A stretch of DNA of 64,000 nucleotides from contig NZ_CATKVU010000006.1 in NCBI RefSeq assembly GCF_949820605.1, positions 2,092,501 through 2,156,500 of the forward strand, given 5' to 3'. How positions within the stretch are numbered: the stretch's first letter is position 1; each line of letters begins with the position of its first letter. A program made the position numbers and the translations under genes. Of this stretch, positions 32,910 to 41,946 are shown in pieces. The notes under the pieces were generated by a model. It ran no database searches, was not told the DNA's origin, and was given only the letters and a program-made list of their open reading frames with translations. The stretch is from Segatella copri. GTDB taxonomy: Bacteria; Bacteroidota; Bacteroidia; Bacteroidales; Bacteroidaceae.

Positions 32910-33785
32910 CTACTGAATCTGCAGTATCTGGTCTTCCGTCAAACCAGTTATTTCCTGGATTGTCGCCTCATCCATACCTTTTGCTAGCATATTCTTAGCA
33001 ATCTCAATACTTCTTTGGCTTTTGCCTACTTCTTCGCCTTTTGCCATGCCTTTTTCCATGCCTTCTTCCATTCCTTTCTGGTACCTGTCATCGAGGAGGG
33101 TTCTTTCAACACTTACCGAATCCCAGAATTTGTCATAGGCACGGAGCTCGGCATCTGTAAAGCCGGAAACTTCAAGATCTTCTACGGCTTTTCCAATCTC
33201 TGGATCATTGAGCAGGTCGGAAGGAATCTCCTTCGTGTTGGAATTGATTTCTGTCAGGAAACGGAGCCACAAGACCATCATGCGCTTGTCAGCGATGGAA
33301 TGTGGAGTGAACTTAGGGAGTTCTATGAAGGTGAAATGCAAGCCCTCGATAACCTTATTGCTGTCCTTATCGTGCACGATGCGGTAGTTGTGGATGAAAT
33401 CCGGAGTATCATGCGCAAAGATATCATTTATCAGGTTGAGAGAATACACGGGTTGCAGTTCGCTGTATCTTCCTCCCTTTTTAGCCTGACTCACATAGAG
33501 CTTGGATGCATTAAACAGTACTCGCTGCTGGAATGCGTCAGACCATTCCATCTGCATTTCCACGCAGAACTTCCTGCCTCTGACGTCGGTGCAGAGTACA
33601 TCAACTATGGTGTTCTTGCCCCCTTCTAGCTGGGGCACAAGTTCCGTTGGCAGATACTCTATCTCGTGTATCTGCTCTTCTTCGCTGAGTGGCAGGAGTG
33701 CGTTCAGGAGACTGATCAGTCTTTTAGGATGATTGCCGAATATCTTCTTGAACGTGAGGTCTGCCTTAGGGTCTAAGTACTTCAT
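32910..33785 (-). CDS. Rpn/PD-(D/E)XK nuclease family protein (putative transposase-type)
   Basis: Members of this family (recombination-promoting nuclease, PDDEXK transposase-like) are annotated widely in gut Bacteroidota; some E. coli Rpn proteins cut DNA and raise recombination. The 291-residue protein starts MKYLDPKADLTFKKIFGNHP, the family signature. The likely catalytic residues are Asp in IVDVLC and Glu/Gln in KFCVEMQMEW (about 60-78). Near the C-terminus is a charged repeat (KGMEEGMEKGMAKGEEVG) often seen in these proteins. A UBA-like helix ends it. No terminal inverted repeats or target duplication flank it, so it is not called a transposon. It is monocistronic with its own promoter. 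Confidence 0.88.
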   Translation of the reverse strand: MKYLDPKADLTFKKIFGNHPKRLISLLNALLPLSEEEQIHEIEYLPTELVPQLEGGKNTIVDVLCTDVRGRKFCVEMQMEWSDAFQQRVLFNASKLYVSQAKKGGRYSELQPVYSLNLINDIFAHDTPDFIHNYRIVHDKDSNKVIEGLHFTFIELPKFTPHSIADKRMMVLWLRFLTEINSNTKEIPSDLLNDPEIGKAVEDLEVSGFTDAELRAYDKFWDSVSVERTLLDDRYQKGMEEGMEKGMAKGEEVGKSQRSIEIAKNMLAKGMDEATIQEITGLTEDQILQIQ

Positions 33786-33810
33786 AACCTTTCTGTTTTA
33801 AAATGATACC

Positions 33811-33819
33811 GCAAAGTTA
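33811..33819 (-). promoter_or_regulatory. -7 box of Rpn-type gene
   Basis: TAACTTTGC on the minus strand, 25 bp upstream of the ATG. Confidence 0.6.
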
Positions 33820-33919
33820 CGATTTTATTTTCATATCAGCAAGAGATTTCTGATAAAAATTAAGAAAAAGCCGCCAAGCATCAGATGTGCTGCCTGGGGG
33901 TACGATAGAGAATCTGGGG

Positions 33920-34087
33920 CTAGTCTGCCCAAATTCCCTTATTTGTTGAATTATCCCAGAAATCCTTCACATTTTCGTCGCTGTAATCCGCTTCTCCCGC
34001 CTTCCGGATAACAGAGCCGGCGAGGATGGCTGTGGTTTCCATTTCCATGACGCTAACAACTGGCTTGATATATCTTTTCTTTTTCAT
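33920..34087 (-). CDS. Small 55-aa protein, MKKKRYIKP type
   Basis: A short ORF in the gap after the BspA-like gene, 24 bp downstream of its stop on the same strand, so probably co-transcribed. It starts MKKKRYIKPVVSVMEME, continues with TTAILAGSV and ends in a charged, Trp-containing tail (KDFWDNSTNKGIWAD). The K-x-Y-I-x-P start followed by a LLA/ILAGS-like word recalls small proteins that are frequent in Prevotella and related genera; this is from memory and unverified. There is no clear signal peptide or membrane helix. Function is unknown; a secreted peptide or precursor peptide is possible. Confidence 0.6.
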   Translation of the reverse strand: MKKKRYIKPVVSVMEMETTAILAGSVIRKAGEADYSDENVKDFWDNSTNKGIWAD

Positions 34088-34111
34088 ATCTGTTTTTATT
34101 ACTATTTTTTA

Positions 34112-35860
34112 TTACTTGATGATAACCTTCATGGTCTTGCCGCCACGCTTCACGATGTTCACACCCTTCTGCAAATTCTGTAGGCGACGGCCCTGGAGAT
34201 CGTAGTATTCTGCCTTGCTATCTGCTGTAGTCTCCAACTGCTCGATGGCTGTGGTGCTGCCGCCGACGCTGATGCTGAACATTCTGGCACCTGCGGCAGG
34301 AGCAGAAGAATTATCTACCATGTAAGCACGGAAAGGCTTGCTGCCCACAGACTCTGTTTTTGTTTCACCCAACAGCTTGGCTGGGTTCATCAGCTTGTCG
34401 CCCTTCACGATGTAGCAGTTGTTATCAGTATCCTTGCTGAACTCCTTTTTGGTGTAGATACCCTGGAGTTTGTAGTTGGCGTCAGCAGTTTCAGCAGTCT
34501 GAACATCTTTTGCTATCGTCTTGTCGGCTTCAGAGATGCTGAGCTTTGTTGCTCCATCCTTCATCTTGATGATAACAGGAGTACCAGCAGCGATGCTTCC
34601 CTCAATCTCTTCGAGTTCTACGGTTTCTGTAACATCATCAGCTGAAAGGAGTTTGAAGGCACGGAAGTTCTTGTCGGCGAGAGATACCTCGAATGGCAGG
34701 CAGAGCGTTGCCCATGTAGTACCTTCCTTCATCTTGCGGCTATAAGATGCAGCCTTGGCTGCGAATGGCTCGTAAGCCACGAAATCCTTATCGTCGTCAA
34801 GTACGAGATTATCCGTAGCAAGAGGTTCTCCCGTTGCTCCTATCTTCTCATCGCCATTCTTGCCTACCAGCTTGGTGAAGTAGCCAGTCTTGTAGTTGGC
34901 AAAGATGTGGTCAGTCTTGTCTGAGTTATTCTTATTATCTATAAAACCTTTGAGGTTTGTGCAATTATCGAACATGTAAGAACCGTTAGTTACCTTGTCT
35001 ATTACAAACTTGTCGTTGACGTAAATGGTTGTGAGAGTTGAGCAATAAGAGAACATAAAGCTCATATTTGTCACCTTCTTTGTATTGAAATTAGAGACAT
35101 CGAGAGAGGTGAGTTTTGAACATTTATAGAACATCCTGTTCATATTAGTCACATTTTCTGAGTTGAAGTTTGTAACGTCAAGAGAGGTGAGAGCTTTGCA
35201 GCCAGCGAACATTTTCATCATATTCTTCACATTCACGGTATTGAAGTTAGTGACGTCGAGAGAGGGGAGTTTTGAACAGGATGAGAACATGCCTTCCATT
35301 GTCGTTACATTCCTCGTATCGAACTTAGTGACGTCGAGAGAGGTGAGAGATTTGCAGCTAGAAAACATGTAGCTCATATCCGTCACCTTTGCGGTATTGA
35401 AGTTGGTAACATCGAGAGAGGTGAGTTTTGAACAGTTATTGAACATGTAGCGCATATCTGTCACCTTCGCTGTATTCAGATATTCCAGGCCTGTAATTGT
35501 TTCCAGTTTTGTGAGACGCTCAAAGAAATAGTACAACGATGTAGGAGTGTATGAGCTAAAGCTCTTATCGAAAACAATGTGCACGATTGTGCCATTTCCT
35601 AATTTTGTATTGATAGCAGCCACCGTCTGTTTATCTTCCACCCAAGCACTATTTTCAGGAAGGGTTTCACCCACAAATTTCTTGAAAGTCAAAGTTTGGG
35701 TAGAGGATTCATACGTTGCTATATACTTAGAACTGGAAGCTGCCTTCTGCGCAACCATGCCGGCTGGCAGAAGCAACAACATGAGCAACATCAATGGGAA
35801 CAGGGCGAATCTACGGATTATCGCCCCCCCCATTGTACATACGGCCGGCTTGCGACCCAT
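34112..35860 (-). CDS. BspA-like leucine-rich-repeat surface protein with G8 tract at its start
   Basis: A probable surface or secreted adhesin-like protein. The open frame gives up to 582 residues. A hydrophobic signal segment (FALFPLMLLMLLLLPAG) is followed by seven 26-residue BspA/DUF285 repeats (about 133-315; consensus VTNMSYMFSSCSKLTSLDVT). A beta-rich region and a C-terminal segment, YYDLQGRRLQNLQKGVNIV, follow, a tail commonly found on exported Prevotella proteins. Starts at 35860 and 35833 are in frame here. The better-looking upstream start (ATGATGAAAAGA, 35888/35885) is in another frame because of a run of eight G at 35824-35831, and it ends at a TAG at 35811. A run of 7 or 10 G would join it to the main frame. 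The gene may therefore be phase-variable, and this copy may be off or using a weaker start. Confidence 0.82.
   Translation of the reverse strand: MGRKPAVCTMGGAIIRRFALFPLMLLMLLLLPAGMVAQKAASSSKYIATYESSTQTLTFKKFVGETLPENSAWVEDKQTVAAINTKLGNGTIVHIVFDKSFSSYTPTSLYYFFERLTKLETITGLEYLNTAKVTDMRYMFNNCSKLTSLDVTNFNTAKVTDMSYMFSSCKSLTSLDVTKFDTRNVTTMEGMFSSCSKLPSLDVTNFNTVNVKNMMKMFAGCKALTSLDVTNFNSENVTNMNRMFYKCSKLTSLDVSNFNTKKVTNMSFMFSYCSTLTTIYVNDKFVIDKVTNGSYMFDNCTNLKGFIDNKNNSDKTDHIFANYKTGYFTKLVGKNGDEKIGATGEPLATDNLVLDDDKDFVAYEPFAAKAASYSRKMKEGTTWATLCLPFEVSLADKNFRAFKLLSADDVTETVELEEIEGSIAAGTPVIIKMKDGATKLSISEADKTIAKDVQTAETADANYKLQGIYTKKEFSKDTDNNCYIVKGDKLMNPAKLLGETKTESVGSKPFRAYMVDNSSAPAAGARMFSISVGGSTTAIEQLETTADSKAEYYDLQGRRLQNLQKGVNIVKRGGKTMKVIIK
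35824..35831. repeat. G8 homopolymer (C8 on plus strand), putative phase-variation tract
   Basis: Eight consecutive G in the minus-strand reading direction, between the upstream ATG pair and the signal peptide of the BspA-like gene. No longer G/C run was noticed in the window. Confidence 0.7.
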
Positions 35861-35924
35861 TGGATTGATTTGTAAATCTTTTCATCATAAATGTTATGTT
35901 TTGTTATTATATTTTATCAAGAAA

Positions 35925-36185
35925 TTACTGAATACTGATTGCCATCAGACTGACTGCCAGACACACGAACGTGATAAACACTACGCCGAGAATGAGGCAG
36001 ATATAGAAACGCCCTCTCCTGATGAAATCACCCAAGCTGAAATGATACATCGGGTAATCATCAAGATAGGTCCTATATTCCCTCACCATGACATTAATCA
36101 TGATGACAACATAAATGAGGAGAAACAAAGCTACTATCAGGATAGCCTGTTCTTCTTTGGCTAATAATTCTATGATACTTTTCAT
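35925..36185 (-). CDS. Small two-helix membrane protein (86 aa)
   Basis: The start at 36185 (MKSIIELLAKEEQ) is chosen because a -7 box ends only 4 bp before it; a longer ATG at 36236 would lie upstream of that promoter. Two membrane helices are clear: AILIVALFLLIYVVIMINVM (about 14-34) and YICLILGVVFITFVCLAVSL (about 60-80). They are joined by a polar loop with several Tyr and Arg (VREYRTYLDDYPMYHF). No family was recognised. It is the gene preceding the BspA-like gene on the same strand, but a 64-bp gap separates them. Confidence 0.65.
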   Translation of the reverse strand: MKSIIELLAKEEQAILIVALFLLIYVVIMINVMVREYRTYLDDYPMYHFSLGDFIRRGRFYICLILGVVFITFVCLAVSLMAISIQ

Positions 36186-36188
36186 GGT

Positions 36189-36197
36189 GCAAATATA
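36189..36197 (-). promoter_or_regulatory. -7 box abutting the small membrane protein start
   Basis: TATATTTGC on the minus strand, separated from the ATG by only 3 bases. If active, the mRNA would be leaderless or nearly so. Confidence 0.5.
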
Positions 36198-36216
36198 GTG
36201 TTTTTCTTTGAAACAA

Positions 36217-36250
36217 GGTGTCGCATTCCCCCACAATGGTGTCGCATTCC
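36217..36250. repeat. Direct repeat GGTGTCGCATTCC
   Basis: Two copies (36217 and 36238), 21 bp apart, lie between the small membrane protein promoter and the next terminator; the terminator stem begins with the same GGTGTC word. They could be an operator for the small gene. Confidence 0.5.
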
Positions 36251-36258
36251 TACAAAAA

Positions 36259-36290
36259 AGGTGTCTCCTTCGTGGGGGAAGGAGACACCT
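36259..36290 (-). terminator. Terminator of 7TM-AraC regulator gene
   Basis: A perfect 12-bp stem, AGGTGTCTCCTT with its complement, around an 8-nt loop. On the minus strand it is followed by TTTTTT. It starts 13 bp past the stop. Confidence 0.85.
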
Positions 36291-36302
36291 AATACATACT
36301 TT

Positions 36303-37454
36303 TTAACAGTTTTTCTCTCTCCAAGCCGTAGGAGAGCAGCCTTCTTTCTCTTTGAACATACGGTAGAGATGGGTACGGGAAGAGAAGCCACACTCGGCAG
36401 AAATGATGTCATTACCGAAGTCGGGGTTATCCAACATCATCTTCTTGGCAGCCTCAAAACGCACCTCGGCAAGCCAGAGGCGGAAGGTGGTATTGAGACA
36501 GGATGAGAGGTAGCGCGACAACTCGTATCTGTTGATATCCAACGAACGTGACAGGGTAATCATATTCAGCGACGTATCCCTATAACCCTTGGCAGCACAC
36601 CATTCATCCAACTTCTCACGGATGATCTTCTGCCGTCTTTCTGAACGCTGCGATTGTAAAGTTTCTTTCTTATCATCAAGTTCTTCATCCTGCAGTTCAG
36701 AATCGGCAGCGTCTCCCCAGATTTTCATTACTGCATTCTCTTCTTCCTCCTTATCCAAGAGTTCTTCGGTAGGCACGTAATTATAGCCCAAAGCCATGAA
36801 ACTGAGCGTGAAGAAAAAGACAGCAAGCAGTCCCAGAGGTCCGATTACATATAGAGATTTGGTGGAAAGAACTGCAAAAGGCAGAGATACTGCAGTAAAG
36901 AAAACGAAGAACACACTGGCTCGCGCATATCTCACGTAAGGCAGGATATCGTAACCAGTCATCACCTCAAGCATCCTCCTGCGCTTTCTGATTTCCACTA
37001 TTATCATATAGATGCAATAGGCTATGTTGATGCCGAACAGGACTATCATCACATAAATCCAGCTGCCGATATGGAAGTTTCCGCTCTGGATAAAGCCGAT
37101 GCAGAAGGCTGCCAATATGGCGGCATAAATGCTGGCGCAGACGATGCTCATCTTCCGGCGGTTGGCATGCGTTGCCTCGATATTGTAAATGCCAATAGAG
37201 ATGAGCGAGAAGCAAGGGGGATAGACCAGAATGTTGAAAACGGCTCCCACAGCAGCGTCTTGAGCCCGGAAGCCCAGAAGCATCTGCATGAGAAATTGTA
37301 TGGCCAATCCTACCATGGCTCCGATAATCAGCCATCGTGAAACTTCATATCGCCGGTTCATCCACTTCATGTGCAGACGGGTAATACCCAGGATGAGGAT
37401 ATTGACGAGCATAAATAGGAAACAGGCGAACTGCAATAAATATAATGTATCCAT
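36303..37454 (-). CDS. Membrane-bound AraC-family transcriptional regulator (7TM-AraC type)
   Basis: An inner-membrane sensor joined to a cytoplasmic AraC-type DNA-binding domain. The start at 37454 (MDTLYLLQF) gives 383 residues; an ATG 11 codons earlier (37487) is possible. The N-terminal half has six to seven membrane helices (for example FACFLFMLVNILILGI, MVGLAIQFLMQMLLG and GPLGLLAVFFFTLSFMALGY). An acidic linker (DKEEEENAVMKIWGDAAD) follows. The AraC domain covers the last 110 residues, with YELSRYLSSCLNTTFRLW and ISAECGFSSRTHLYRMFKEK. The target is unknown; neighbouring candidates are the small membrane protein and the BspA-like gene downstream. Confidence 0.9.
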   Translation of the reverse strand: MDTLYLLQFACFLFMLVNILILGITRLHMKWMNRRYEVSRWLIIGAMVGLAIQFLMQMLLGFRAQDAAVGAVFNILVYPPCFSLISIGIYNIEATHANRRKMSIVCASIYAAILAAFCIGFIQSGNFHIGSWIYVMIVLFGINIAYCIYMIIVEIRKRRRMLEVMTGYDILPYVRYARASVFFVFFTAVSLPFAVLSTKSLYVIGPLGLLAVFFFTLSFMALGYNYVPTEELLDKEEEENAVMKIWGDAADSELQDEELDDKKETLQSQRSERRQKIIREKLDEWCAAKGYRDTSLNMITLSRSLDINRYELSRYLSSCLNTTFRLWLAEVRFEAAKKMMLDNPDFGNDIISAECGFSSRTHLYRMFKEKEGCSPTAWREKNC

Positions 37455-37516
37455 TTCGTTCTTATTTTTGTATTTGGCATCTGCCAAGATTACTGTTTAA
37501 TCGTCTTAATATGCAT

Positions 37517-37525
37517 GCAAAAGTA
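37517..37525 (-). promoter_or_regulatory. -7 box of the 7TM-AraC gene
   Basis: TACTTTTGC on the minus strand, 62 bp upstream of the chosen start. Confidence 0.6.
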
Positions 37526-37617
37526 CAATTTTTATTTTGAAATGAGGGTAAAAATAAGGGAAAAAGTGATATTTTAAAAGAAAAAAATGTTTTATTTATC
37601 GGGGACAGCTGACGAGT

Positions 37618-37658
37618 GAAACTAGAACAGCAGACTGGCGAAACTAGAACAGCAGACT
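37618..37658. repeat. 22-bp direct repeat GAAACTAGAACAGCAGACT
   Basis: Two near-identical copies (37618-37636 and 37640-37658) are followed by looser copies of the AGAACAG/CAGTGGGC words to about 37690. This is gene-free DNA between the AraC gene promoter and the isolated susD. Function unknown. Confidence 0.6.
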
Positions 37659-37787
37659 AGCGATAGGCAGAACAGTGGGCTGTCTGAGCCAAACAGCGAA
37701 TGAAAACCGGTTTGCCAGGTTTTTAAATAACCGAAATATCACACCGGTTCCGGCTGATATCAGAAAAGAAGAAGAAAAATTGATTTT

Positions 37788-37948
37788 ACTCTTCACTCTT
37801 CACCCAATCGCTGGGAATGCCTTTATATAAAGGGGATTCGAGAGGTGAAGAGTGGGTGAAGAGAGGTGAAGAGTTACAAAAAACTCTTCACCCTCCGCAA
37901 CACCTTTATATAAAGGGGATTCGAGCTATCGGGTGAAGAGTGAAGAGT
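37788..37948. repeat. Tandem-repeat inverted-arm element C (GTGAAGA units)
   Basis: The left arm ACTCTTCACTCTTCACCC (37788-37805) and right arm GGGTGAAGAGTGAAGAGT (37931-37948) are perfect inverted copies. Between them lie further GTGAAGAG and CTCTTCACC units around 37843-37893, and two copies of a 23-bp word (37820 and 37903) starting CCTTTATATAAAGG. The element begins 7 bp past the isolated SusD stop. Confidence 0.75.
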
Positions 37949-37954
37949 TTTGGG

Positions 37955-39283
37955 CTATTCCATTGCCTCATATCCTTTATTCTGAACCAACTTGCCATTG
38001 AAGGCAAGGCTTCGCTGAGGTATCGGGAAGACGATGGAACAGAACGTAAGAGCGGACTGAACAGAACGGCGAAGATGCGAGGACTTGAGGAACTTGCCGA
38101 AACGGATAAGGTCCTGACGGTGACAGGTCTCGCCCACCAGCACAACCTGACGGTCTTCCAGAATATTGGCAAGCGAAGACTTGCGCGCAGGCAAACCGGC
38201 ATGCGCACGAACCATATTATACTCTGCCCTGCCATCCCCATCGTTGCGCTCCATCGCCTCAGCCTTCATCAGCAACACATCAGCATAACGGAAACGGAAC
38301 AGAGGTTTGGCTGGCCGGGAATGCAGAACAGAATCAGCCTCATCCATCACCAGCGCATCCTTCGGCATCTGATAACGCGCAGAACTGTTGAAGATTTCAT
38401 CCTCCTCTAAACTGCAGCCCTCATCAGCCAATCTGTTGCAATAGAAGATGCAGGTTTCCCAAGCATTCAATATCCTGCTGCGGTTCTCACTAGCCTTGCC
38501 GCCCGTAATGAGCGAGGCGCCATCGGCAGTACGCACCATAAATTCCAGGTCCCTACCCTTCGGACGCTTCCTGTAACCCTGCGCCCAATCGTTGTACATA
38601 TAGATTTCAGCATTCAGCGCCAGCTTAGCCAGCAGGAAGTTAACCACAGGCTGCGTGATGCGCCCATAATGAGAGCCTTCCTCCAAACTTGACGTCTGAG
38701 GAAGATAAGGCAACACCTGCTGCAATTCGCTGAAGATGAAATGGAAGATTTCGCTCCGTTCGCTCTGAGCCGACAGCTTTTCATCGGTAACCGAAGAGCC
38801 CGAAGCCGGTTCATAGATGAGTGATTCTGCCGAAGACAGGAGTACCGGAATCCTGCCATACAAATCCATCGCCTCATAATACATCATGGCTCTGATGGCA
38901 CGCACCTCAGCCTTGAACTGCGCCTTCTGGTTATCGGTAAGGCGTACAGACTGGAAATCAATCATATCCAGCGACTTGTTGCACATGCCGATAGCCCGAT
39001 AAAGATATTGCCAGGAAGAATAAAGCTGCTCATCATCAGGAGAAAGAGAAAGCAGACTGTCAAGACGCTGAATATTGCGGATGCCTTCCCCATCTATCGC
39101 TCCACCCATAAAATCATATAAAGGAGCTATGGTCGTATCGAATATTTCAGACGCAGAACCATTGCTGCCACCCCCATCGAACTGATCCTTAGGATGCTCA
39201 TTCAAGCACGATGAGAATGCCAACAGGGTCAGGAAAGAGATGACCCACGTGAACAAATGTGAAATATATCGTCTCATAACCAT
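37955..39283 (-). CDS. Isolated, short SusD/RagB-family lipoprotein
   Basis: A SusD-type lipoprotein (lipobox FSSC, then LNEHPKDQF) of only 442 residues against a usual 500-600. The N-terminal TPR half is normal (YLYRAIGMCNKSLDMID, KAEVRAIRAMMYYEAMDLYGRIP), as are FRYADVLLMKAEAM and the C-terminal EDRQVVLVGETCHRQDLIRFG segment. The region between about residues 300 and 330, where SusD proteins carry a long ligand-binding stretch, looks shortened. No susC is adjacent on either side, so the partner transporter is elsewhere or lost. It has its own promoter, divergent from the thiamine operon. Confidence 0.85.
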   Translation of the reverse strand: MVMRRYISHLFTWVISFLTLLAFSSCLNEHPKDQFDGGGSNGSASEIFDTTIAPLYDFMGGAIDGEGIRNIQRLDSLLSLSPDDEQLYSSWQYLYRAIGMCNKSLDMIDFQSVRLTDNQKAQFKAEVRAIRAMMYYEAMDLYGRIPVLLSSAESLIYEPASGSSVTDEKLSAQSERSEIFHFIFSELQQVLPYLPQTSSLEEGSHYGRITQPVVNFLLAKLALNAEIYMYNDWAQGYRKRPKGRDLEFMVRTADGASLITGGKASENRSRILNAWETCIFYCNRLADEGCSLEEDEIFNSSARYQMPKDALVMDEADSVLHSRPAKPLFRFRYADVLLMKAEAMERNDGDGRAEYNMVRAHAGLPARKSSLANILEDRQVVLVGETCHRQDLIRFGKFLKSSHLRRSVQSALTFCSIVFPIPQRSLAFNGKLVQNKGYEAME

Positions 39284-39339
39284 ATCACATGAAGTTTAGG
39301 TTTCAAACTGTCAAGACTGCAAATAACAGCAATCCGACT

Positions 39340-39348
39340 GCAAATATA
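39340..39348 (-). promoter_or_regulatory. -7 box of isolated susD gene
   Basis: TATATTTGC on the minus strand, 56 bp upstream of the ATG. A similar GTTATTTGC lies 20 bp closer. Confidence 0.5.
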
Positions 39349-39397
39349 AGAAAAAAGAATGATAAAAGGACACAAATATAGTAAAAATCTACGTAAA

Positions 39398-39430
39398 TTT
39401 TGCGGGATTAAAATTTATTTGTACCTTTGC
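39398..39430 (+). promoter_or_regulatory. Promoter of thiamine uptake operon
   Basis: TTTTG (39398) and TACCTTTGC (39422-39430) are about 19 bp apart, a good -33/-7 pair just upstream of the TPP riboswitch. Confidence 0.7.
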
Positions 39431-39453
39431 ACCCGGTTAGCAGAGAGCTAACT

Positions 39454-39540
39454 AAGGGGTGCTACCGCCGGAAAAGAGAAAAAAGCGGATGCTGAGAATA
39501 TACCCATCGACCTGAACCAGATAATGCTGGCGTAGGAAAA
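39454..39540 (+). promoter_or_regulatory. TPP (thiamine pyrophosphate) riboswitch
   Basis: The thi-box landmarks occur in order: GGGGTGC, CTGAGA (39492-39497), TACCC (39501), then GAACC, GATAATGCTGGCGTAGG at the 3' side. It lies in the leader of a TonB receptor and PnuT, so TPP binding should repress thiamine import. Downstream, TAAGG/CCTTA with a TTTTTT run (39569-39574) may form the expression platform; that part is inferred. Confidence 0.93.
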
Positions 39541-39585
39541 TAAGGCACATTCCCCCCTTATATAGATGTTTTTTAAATTAAATAA

Positions 39586-41946
39586 ATGAAAAGATTCAAC
39601 GGGATCGCACTCAGTGTAGCGTTTTGCTCTTTGGCAAGCCAGGCTGCACTGGCACAGACAAAAATCGACACCTTGAAGGTGCAGAATTTGAATGAAGTGA
39701 TTGTAAAAGGCGTACGTGCCGCAAAGGAAGCTCCATACGCCGTGGCTAACATCAGGAAATCAGAACTCAAACAATTCTCTTGCTCAGGTCAGGAATTGCC
39801 ATTTCTCCTTTCTCGTACACCGGGCATTCTCGCCTGGAGTGAGAATGGTATCGGCACCGGTACTACCTATATGCGCATTCGTGGCGCTGCCGGAAGTCGC
39901 ATCAATGTAACACTCGACGGAGTGGCTCTCAACTCACCGGAAGACCAGACCGTTTTCTGGGCTAACATGAACAGTTATTCTTCGCTCCTGGGCAGCATCC
40001 AGGTACAGCGCGGCGTAGGTTCTTCTACCAATGGCGACGGTGCTTTCGGTGGAAGCATCTCTATGGCTACAGCTGCTCCTTCGCTCACCCCTACTGCAGA
40101 AGTTACCGGCTCTTTCGGTTCCTACAATACCTATCATACAGGCGCCAGCTTCTCTACAGGTCTGCTCGGCAAGCATCTGATTTTTGACGGTGCTTATCAC
40201 GAGACAGCTACCGACGGTTATGTAGACGGCACAGCAGGCCGCTCAGGTTCTTACTATGGCGGCCTGACCTGGCTGGGCGATAACTTCAAGATAAGCTACA
40301 AGAACATCGGCAACTTCGAGAAGACCGGTCAGGCTTGGAACGGTGTGCTGGGTGGAGATTACAACTCTAACTTCAGCCTCCTTCAGGATGGCATCCGCAC
40401 TTATAAAGATATGTATAAGGCTGGTCTGGATAAGTTTAACGTGCTGACAGGCGATATGGTTCGCAACGACAAGGGCGATTATACCATCACTCCTTATATC
40501 CTGCGCGACGGAAGCAAATGGGACAAGACTACTGATAACTTCTATCAGAACCACAACATCCTTTCGGCTACCTGGACACCAAGCAGCCACTGGAGCCACA
40601 GCCTCTCACTGCATTACACCTATGGCTACGGCTACTACAAGGAGTTTAAGAACAACGCCAAGTTTGCCAAGTTCGGACTCGTCTACAAGGATGCAGAGGG
40701 CAACAAGATTAAGAAGTCTGACTTCATCCGCAAGAAGGGACTCACCCAGCATACCTACGGCATGGTATACAATACCAACTACAAGGATGAGCACTGGGAT
40801 GTTATCGGCGGATTGAACCTGCAGCAGTTCCGCGGCAACCACTGGGGATACCTTACTTATATCGCCAACCAGGATGCCGAGAAGAAATTCTTCGGCAACA
40901 ACGGAAAGTATAAGTACTATGATTCTGATGCCCATAAGTATGACTACAGCGCCTTCGTCAAGGCAAGCTATCGCTTTGCAGACTACTGGAATGCCTTCGC
41001 TGACCTGCAGTATCGCCGTGTAGAATACAAGACCGACGGTATCAACGATAAGTTTATCACCCAGGCAGATGGCAGCTACAAGAACCAGGAGCTGAACATC
41101 AACGAGAAGTACAACTTCTTCAACCCTAAGGCAGGTATCAGCTTCAACAAGGATGGCCACAAGGCATACGCATCTGTAGCCTACAGCAACCGCGAGCCAG
41201 AGCGCAATAACTTTACCGACAACTTCAACTATCCATTCCCTAAAGAGGAGAAGCTGCTCGATGTAGAGTTCGGCTATCAGTATCAGGGCGACAACTGGCA
41301 TGCAGGCGCCAACTTCTACTATATGGATTATGACAACCAGCTGGCTCAGACCGGACAGTTGAGTGACATCGGCGAGGCGCTGACCACCAACATCAAGGAT
41401 TCTTACCGTATGGGCGTAGAGCTGACAGCCGGCTGGGCACCATTGTCATGGTTGTCTGTAGAAGGAAATGCCGCTTTGAGCAAGAACAAGATCAAGGACT
41501 TTGATGAGTATGTAAGCAACTGGGATGATGAAACGAAGCCAGGCGTAGTACATTACGACAACTCAACCCTGTCTTATTCTCCATCAGCTATCCTGAACGG
41601 ATTCATCGACATCCACTATGCCGGTTTCTCAGCTACCTGGCACACCAACTTTGTAAGTCGCCAGTATATTACCAACACAGAAGACCGCGACTTCTCGCTG
41701 CCATGCTATTCACAGAGCGACCTGAGCCTGAACTACAGTGCTAAGGTAACTAAGGCACTCGGCATCAAGGAGGTAAACTTCGGTGTGGACATCAACAATA
41801 TCTTCAACCGCCACTATGCAGCCAGCGCATTCACCTGGGGCAATGCTATCGGTTACGGATATACATTGGACAACCGATTCAAGCAGATAGCCTACATCCC
41901 GATGGCAGATACCACCTGGATGACGCATCTTACATTGAAGTTCTAA
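39586..41946 (+). CDS. TonB-dependent receptor for thiamine (outer membrane)
   Basis: An outer-membrane active importer of 786 residues. It has a signal peptide (ending AALAQ), a TonB-box region (LNEVIVKGVRAAKEAPY), a plug (about 45-150, with YMRIRGAAGSRINVTLDG and GDGAFGGSI) and a beta-barrel ending in MTHLTLKF. Unlike the SusC proteins here it lacks the carboxypeptidase-like domain and the long SusC insertions, as expected for a vitamin receptor. The thiamine substrate is inferred from the TPP riboswitch in its leader and from pnuT 12 bp downstream. Confidence 0.92.
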   Translation: MKRFNGIALSVAFCSLASQAALAQTKIDTLKVQNLNEVIVKGVRAAKEAPYAVANIRKSELKQFSCSGQELPFLLSRTPGILAWSENGIGTGTTYMRIRGAAGSRINVTLDGVALNSPEDQTVFWANMNSYSSLLGSIQVQRGVGSSTNGDGAFGGSISMATAAPSLTPTAEVTGSFGSYNTYHTGASFSTGLLGKHLIFDGAYHETATDGYVDGTAGRSGSYYGGLTWLGDNFKISYKNIGNFEKTGQAWNGVLGGDYNSNFSLLQDGIRTYKDMYKAGLDKFNVLTGDMVRNDKGDYTITPYILRDGSKWDKTTDNFYQNHNILSATWTPSSHWSHSLSLHYTYGYGYYKEFKNNAKFAKFGLVYKDAEGNKIKKSDFIRKKGLTQHTYGMVYNTNYKDEHWDVIGGLNLQQFRGNHWGYLTYIANQDAEKKFFGNNGKYKYYDSDAHKYDYSAFVKASYRFADYWNAFADLQYRRVEYKTDGINDKFITQADGSYKNQELNINEKYNFFNPKAGISFNKDGHKAYASVAYSNREPERNNFTDNFNYPFPKEEKLLDVEFGYQYQGDNWHAGANFYYMDYDNQLAQTGQLSDIGEALTTNIKDSYRMGVELTAGWAPLSWLSVEGNAALSKNKIKDFDEYVSNWDDETKPGVVHYDNSTLSYSPSAILNGFIDIHYAGFSATWHTNFVSRQYITNTEDRDFSLPCYSQSDLSLNYSAKVTKALGIKEVNFGVDINNIFNRHYAASAFTWGNAIGYGYTLDNRFKQIAYIPMADTTWMTHLTLKF

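Follow-up and report, generated by a model that had tools for sequence, protein, structure and literature searches.

In this study, we report a tract of eight G residues (G8) in the 5' coding part of a repeat-protein gene of Segatella copri. It lies on the minus strand at positions 35831-35824 of a 64,000-nucleotide stretch of contig NZ_CATKVU010000006.1, and this whole stretch is hereafter called the window. The tract is probably a slippage-prone contingency tract in the 5' coding part of an exported PARCEL/DUF285 (BspA-type) repeat protein of the S. copri group. By comparison of DNA and predicted proteins, we show how the tract is placed among the start codons of the gene, and that alleles with otherwise identical proteins occur in the population in frames one base apart.

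Reading frames at the G tract and the protein family

On the minus strand, a tandem ATGATG (35883..35888, with the two starts at 35888 and 35885) opens a leader frame of 25 residues, which runs through the G8 and stops at a TAG ending at 35811 (35811..35888). The portion of this frame up to the tract is common to the leader-frame homologues described below. The tract (35824..35831) interrupts the link from ATGATG to a long frame (34112..35860, minus strand), which codes for 582 residues (P0001) when read from an internal ATG at 35860 (35858..35860). A second internal ATG at 35833 (35831..35833), which overlaps the tract by its G, the first of the eight, is also in frame with the long open reading frame (ORF). 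In this 8-G state the frame is still open and keeps the full signal-peptide-like stretch, which was recognised by eye 3' of the tract and is followed by the PARCEL/DUF285 repeats.

The coordinates and sequence of the ATGATG, the G8 and the TAG given in an earlier, sequence-only reading of this DNA were confirmed, as was its frame arithmetic, by which the long frame is reached from ATGATG with 7 or 10 G. Its statement that with 8 G the long frame can be read only from 35860 or 35833 was too narrow: both are readable, and so are further in-frame ATGs 3' of the tract at 35791, 35782 and 35758, at which initiation would cost part or all of the signal-peptide-like stretch. As in phase-variable genes with simple sequence repeats (SSRs), the coding part holds a repeat tract whose length sets the reading frame.

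The protein scored 198.4 bits against TIGR02167, the 26-residue PARCEL repeat (cut-off 30; 5.5e-60), and 141.4 bits against DUF285 (PF03382; cut-off 25; 1.5e-41), which places it in both families. Six repeat motifs were found at an exact spacing of 26 residues, as in proteins with tandem repeats of 25-26 residues. The match to the BspA-type LRR_5 family (PF13306) was also above its cut-off, at 39.2 bits against 27.7, and was weaker than that to DUF285. Leucine-rich-repeat adhesin, the earlier description, is a label, as the strongest matches are to TIGR02167 and DUF285. These profile matches make PARCEL/DUF285 repeat protein the most fitting description. None of the solved structures searched matched it. 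Homologues with a named source came from Segatella copri or Segatella sp. (P0104, P0135, P0227).

Frame states among homologous proteins and DNA copies

The 582-residue protein was used as query, and the best 120 of 7,997 matches, themselves drawn from a candidate set of capped size, were classed by their first residues; frame states here and below were mostly read from predicted proteins, whose starts are gene-caller choices. A start in the leader frame was found in 58 of the 120, mostly of the form MMKRFTNQSNGSQAGRMYNGGA..., and a start in the frame of the window in 49, made up of 32 MGR-type (MGRKPAVCTMGGA-like) and 17 MGGA-type proteins. The rest consisted of three proteins with the leader fused to the window frame by another indel, seven that start after the tract, two others, and one that starts just before the tract in the leader frame (MYNGGA). 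If the upstream bases match those of the window, YNGGA and CTMGGA are alternative readings of one stretch of DNA, the tract being longer or shorter by a single base.

Each of the two main classes was then targeted by a search of its own, with N-terminal segments of 47 and 42 residues (signal peptide included) as queries, and the best 120 of 5,043 and of 4,708 matches were taken. The pooled set held 354 proteins, in which the class counts are not frequencies, since these searches were class-aimed: 172 leader, 128 MGR, 17 MGGA, 8 starting after or just before the tract, 2 others, and 27 in which a different indel joins the leader to the 8-G-type frame. Among the 354 were six pairs of a leader-frame and a window-frame protein with 100% identical mature sequence (513 to 929 residues): P0205/P0339, P0178/P0335, P0135/P0246, P0133/P0248, P0125/P0240 and P0037/P0057. 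Within each of the six, the two lengths differ by exactly 9 residues. A seventh pair (P0085/P0079) sets a leader start beside an MGGA start, and an eighth (P0024/P0044) an MGGA start beside a start after the tract. When the 354 proteins were grouped into allele clusters at an identity of at least 98%, both main states were present in 15 of the 40 clusters. By the predicted proteins in these six pairs and 15 clusters, tract length differs among otherwise identical alleles, a further mark of SSR phase-variable genes.

The leader frame was carried by 17 contigs each for P0135 and P0205 and by 9 for P0057, and the window frame by 6 for P0246, 3 for P0240 and 4 for P0037. The tract was not fixed at eight G in all strains, the outcome that the sequence-only reading had named as telling against its proposal; alleles in both frames and a relative with seven G were found instead. 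On this comparison of predicted proteins and DNA, a true polymorphism in tract length is very probable in the population. The fused-leader proteins fit selection for upstream initiation, and are as expected if it is worth keeping.

The leader was also compared with two DNA copies. L078 (MT838635.1), an unverified record from human faeces in Mexico filed as 'Bacteriophage sp.', carries the same upstream gene as the window, with 87.6% identity over 299 bases spanning that gene into the leader. Its related leader has seven G and is open for 1,180 codons from the leader start. In L079 (MT839659.1), a diverged relative, the G run is interrupted. The internal MGR-type start runs into a stop after 7 codons in L078 and 22 codons in L079, and in both the long frame is reached only from the leader start or from same-frame starts within or after the leader. 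Because the MGR-type start is closed and the leader start open in both records, the upstream start looks original; this comparison suggests that ATGATG is the original start and that the 8-G state is a departure from it.

The 5.4-kb 'phage' record L078 itself resembles Segatella chromosomal DNA. Its first bases lie within the small upstream gene; a repeat-protein gene follows, and at the far end are an AraC-type gene and the first part of a small upstream gene, a layout that a tandem array, a circle or a misassembly would give.

Tract length alone carries no meaning, since the window contains one G8 and dinucleotide shuffles expect 1.15; the tract is taken as more than chance because relatives differ in frame. 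A general habit of poly-G tracts was rejected as an explanation. The nearest compared genome (G001, 3.3 Mb) has five overlapping G8 matches that make up three tracts of eight or more G, fewer than shuffles suggest, and none of the three is placed inside a frame start, between an ATG and the rest of its frame. Two of the three precede the first ATG of an open frame, by 82 and 63 nt, and may have a related role there. By eye, one tract of this set (L160/L162/L164) is 82 nt upstream of a lipoprotein-like ORF; the other two adjoin copies of the same repeated element, and of these one precedes a membrane-protein-like ORF by 63 nt and the other sits beside a SusC-like frame, on its upstream edge.

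In wider searches, leader DNA matched 4 of 60 relatives, the matches outside G001 being weak and short (E 5.0e-4 to 7.1e-4) and that in G001 ending upstream of the gene. Across the genus it matched 17 of 398 genomes, with two candidates per genome scored; outside G001 these matches, too, were weak and short, with E values of 8.5e-5 to 9.8e-4. The first 100 residues of the protein matched none of the 398 genus genomes, a weak negative from a search run with no positive control, and the leader pattern matched none of 399 family genomes. Three patterns gave no match in viral contigs, where protein alignment (best 80 of 283 relatives) gave a top identity of 58% and matches beginning at query residues of at least 51. 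Plasmids gave no match by DNA, and 81 plasmid records had relatives of below 60% identity by protein. A phage collection gave two records by DNA, the same two with the remainder of the gene as query, the same two and two weak matches with L078 as query, and none with the first 100 residues. Genome contigs added 11 more distant loci, and the whole protein was matched in 133 of 150 genus genomes, the best-scoring match at about 53% identity.

By eye, the leader is absent from 19 bspA-like ORFs in 16 regions of other genomes of the genus. Most of these ORFs have an ordinary-looking signal peptide, L068 and L073 are without one at the first ATG, and one of the 19 has a G6 near its start. At L072, in genome G085, three neighbouring bspA-like genes share another pre-signal leader, in which the G run at the corresponding place has 6 G, has 5 or is interrupted; it may be a slippage site of a similar kind.

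Proposed mechanism and rival explanations

Start contexts were ranked against the 35 ORF starts of the window, the gene's own ORF included. The 20 bases upstream of the first ATG of ATGATG are 85% A+T (80th percentile), compared with 75% (51st percentile) for the ATG at 35860 and 40% (3rd percentile) for that at 35833, and by folding energy the surroundings of the upstream start are the more open (80th versus 26th percentile). Bacteroidota tend to initiate in A+T-rich, weakly structured leaders, so that high output would be expected in one state of the tract and lower output in the other.

According to the mechanism proposed here, replication slippage would add or remove one G in the tract, and this change would bring the long frame into register with the main start, ATGATG, or take it out. 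Ribosomes starting at the A+T-rich ATGATG would, in the leader-frame state, read on into the signal peptide and the repeats, giving high output. In the 8-G state they would stop after 25 codons, and protein would come from the internal starts alone, with low or no output; to read eight G as a low state, and not as one that is fully off, is a guess at about even odds. Of the phase-variable switch put forward by the sequence-only reading, the variation in tract length across the family stands, as seen in the predicted proteins and in the seven G of L078, and the switching of expression is inferred. Within our own explanation, too, we infer that slippage is the cause, that the change is reversible and that output differs.

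Several observations weigh against this explanation. Only three sequences (the window, L078 and L079) gave tract length at the DNA level, and P0178, P0248 and P0339, members of identical pairs, are on one contig each, where errors are possible. In L079 the leader frame is open for only 189 codons, through the signal peptide, with the repeats in other frames, and the mature N-terminus of both L078 and L079 differs from that of the window. The closest relatives of the window protein among the 354 carry 8-G-type frames only: P0272, leader-fused, at 97.6% identity and P0267, in the same frame, at 97.4%, followed by P0270, P0266 and P0273, all fused, at 95.6 to 96.1%. None of the 354 proteins shows the window allele in the plain leader frame, for which the nearest protein is P0139 at 90.8%. 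The 27 fused proteins share one N-terminus (26 MMKRFQINP, 1 MKRFQINP), and the fused leaders may represent a single event spread by descent or recombination. The predicted unpaired probability is 0.50 at the upstream ATG versus 0.55 at 35860. Finally, the two states share one mature protein, and unless expression differs, the variation would be silent. Our confidence in a contingency tract was slightly lowered because of the short open frame of L079 and the unfavourable unpaired probability.

A rival explanation is neutral polymorphism, in which 8-G alleles would start at 35860 (or 35833) and the others at the upstream ATG, the tract drifting in a tolerant pre-signal region with about equal expression. 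Such drift would fit the retention of the whole signal-peptide-like stretch and of one mature protein in both frames. It would also fit the ATG at 35860, whose A+T-rich context is ordinary for the window and which matches the upstream start or better in predicted unpaired probability. Moreover, the best 120 matches, with 49 proteins in the window frame, 58 in the leader frame and only 7 starting after the tract, look as if the 8-G frame, but not the third, were tolerated. However, the MGR-type start fails to reach the long frame in L078 and L079, and it may be missing in some other alleles, as 17 of the 120 are called from MGGA; the fused-leader alleles, too, suggest that the upstream start matters. 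We consider neutral drift unlikely.

Single-base errors in G runs are common indel errors, and the two frames might arise from sequencing or assembly error around one true tract length. The homologues come mostly from assemblies, and 3 of the 12 proteins of the identical pairs are on one contig. On the other hand, several states are found on 3 to 17 contigs, the two frames are nearly equal in frequency and the third is rare, and runs of 7 to 8 are on the short side for errors of short-read sequencing, all of which makes error an improbable source of the two frames. Programmed slippage of ribosomes or RNA polymerase at the G8, by which one DNA length would express both frames and 8-G alleles, too, would yield a leader-started protein, is very improbable. 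The tract does form the passage between the leader frame and the long frame, and other bacteria are known to show slippage on runs of G or A. However, L078 and the window differ in the length of the DNA itself, and proteins predicted in two frames mean that the DNA behind them differs. Decay, by which the 8-G allele would be a frameshift on the way to a pseudogene, could draw on the stop after 25 codons in the ATGATG frame, on the lack of the gene at this place in G001 and on the related L079 gene, which is broken after 189 codons. Against it, the 582-residue frame is intact, close relatives keep the same length, and 49 of the 120 homologues share the frame type with long repeat regions, so that decay is hardly credible. 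A slippage-prone contingency tract remains our preferred explanation.

Locus neighbourhood and relation to known systems

A small membrane-protein-like gene of 86 residues (35925..36185, minus strand) lies upstream of the repeat-protein gene, separated from it by 36 bases, and the two may be co-transcribed. The small gene gave no NCBIfam match; it is kept in G001 and present in L078. Upstream of both genes, between an AraC-type gene and the small gene, is a terminator-like hairpin (36259..36290, minus strand). A promoter scan gave 6 promoter-like sites where 4.8 were expected, which is the chance level, and one of them (9 of 12) is just upstream of ATGATG.

Promoter inversion was considered and rejected, as no convincing flanking inverted repeats were found in 33000-40000. 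Nine inverted-repeat pairs were detected in this region, of which only a 14-nt pair (34563/36054) spans the gene start, and it looks like chance. Within 35700-36350 the only inverted repeats were the terminator-like hairpin and an adjoining 76% pair, which is not the arrangement of a Bacteroidales invertible switch.

The stretch that contains the repeat-protein gene (34073..35895, minus strand) is absent in G001, where it corresponds to L046 9425-9436 and the start of the next small ORF is lost as well. Since both flanks match G001, at about 93%, the gene is also a presence/absence cassette. Just downstream of it is a PD-(D/E)XK transposase-like gene (PF12784; 32910-33785), in the place of which G001 has a GNAT-like ORF with a small partner ORF (toxin-antitoxin-like, by eye) and a hydrolase-like gene. 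Beside the end of a SusD-like gene (37955-39283), a 66-nt inverted repeat, 80% complementary with its arms 29 nt apart, occupies 37788-37948; pieces of it match G001 elsewhere (L046 7344-7504 and 10701-10803), and it may be a small mobile or invertible element. Most of the SusD-like gene (38033-38932) is absent at this place in G001.

The kind of system proposed here is already known in simple-repeat contingency genes. In the lic genes of Haemophilus influenzae, a repeat tract is followed by start codons in different frames, with graded expression; the repeats there are tetranucleotides and the genes serve lipopolysaccharide, unlike the G tract and surface protein of the window.

The comparisons that follow are with passages of the cited papers. 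In Mycoplasma, poly-G or poly-A tracts vary in length in the 5' coding parts of DUF285/PARCEL and other lipoproteins (PMC2996958, PMC2824730). Among these, MAG1330 and MAG3260 of Mycoplasma agalactiae (drp family) belong to the same PARCEL/DUF285 repeat family as the window protein. They are Mollicute lipoproteins, whereas the window gene, from Bacteroidales, has a signal-peptide-like stretch, a leader that it shares with other alleles and a second frame with an internal start that is open. In the M. bovis P68 / M. agalactiae P48-like lipoprotein, the 5' coding sequence holds a poly-G tract with 8 to 10 G, of which one length gives the complete protein (PMC2824730); the case resembles that of the window and differs in phylum and, by name, in protein family. 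For BspA-like proteins of Candidatus Mycoplasma girerdii, switching by simple-repeat length variation was predicted and tracked in metagenome reads (PMC5476646); there the repeats are dinucleotides with variants at read level, while the G tract described here is known from assembled sequences. In a gut commensal, Bifidobacterium breve, the pili are subject to G-tract slippage that joins or separates frames, as followed by deep sequencing (PMC9187656). A G tract and a surface structure are shared with the window, but these are sortase pili of another phylum, and slippage there is experimentally proven.

Within Bacteroidota, a putative phase variation mechanism is described for the FSD adhesins of Ornithobacterium hominis (PMC13183296); their domain differs from that of the window protein, and the mechanism is given without a name in the passages available. 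In passages of a 2025 review of gut Bacteroidales, phase variation is dealt with as DNA inversion, and the words 'homopolymer' and 'slipped' are absent from the main text (PMC12632263). The invertible promoters and genes of this order share surface phase variation with the case of the window and differ from it by DNA inversion. None of the four Bacteroidetes names looked for occurs in the text of PMC2831843, and no report of homopolymer phase variation in Prevotella or Segatella was found among the matches listed from the open-licence literature. A change from eight to seven C in streptococcal mga, which reverted during animal infection, is cited in a review (PMC11868660, in part), so a tract of 7 to 8 is not too short. 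As far as these searches tell, what is new within the open-licence literature is the genus, a leader shared across many alleles and a readable second frame.

It is possible, and we suggest it tentatively, that the tract belongs to a group-wide contingency system in Segatella copri. A large set of PARCEL surface-protein alleles, perhaps thousands, would have one leader in common, with a slippery G tract in it. An exportable protein would come from two of the three frames, each gene would be high, low or off, and the surface repertoire would differ between cells of one gut, all this in an order for which phase variation has until now been described chiefly as DNA inversion. Predicted starts differ between otherwise identical alleles, so N-termini and expression state are easily misread. 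If the explanation is true, a homopolymer switch ahead of a large family of gut-commensal surface proteins would escape inversion finders, and such a switch could be scored from existing metagenome reads.
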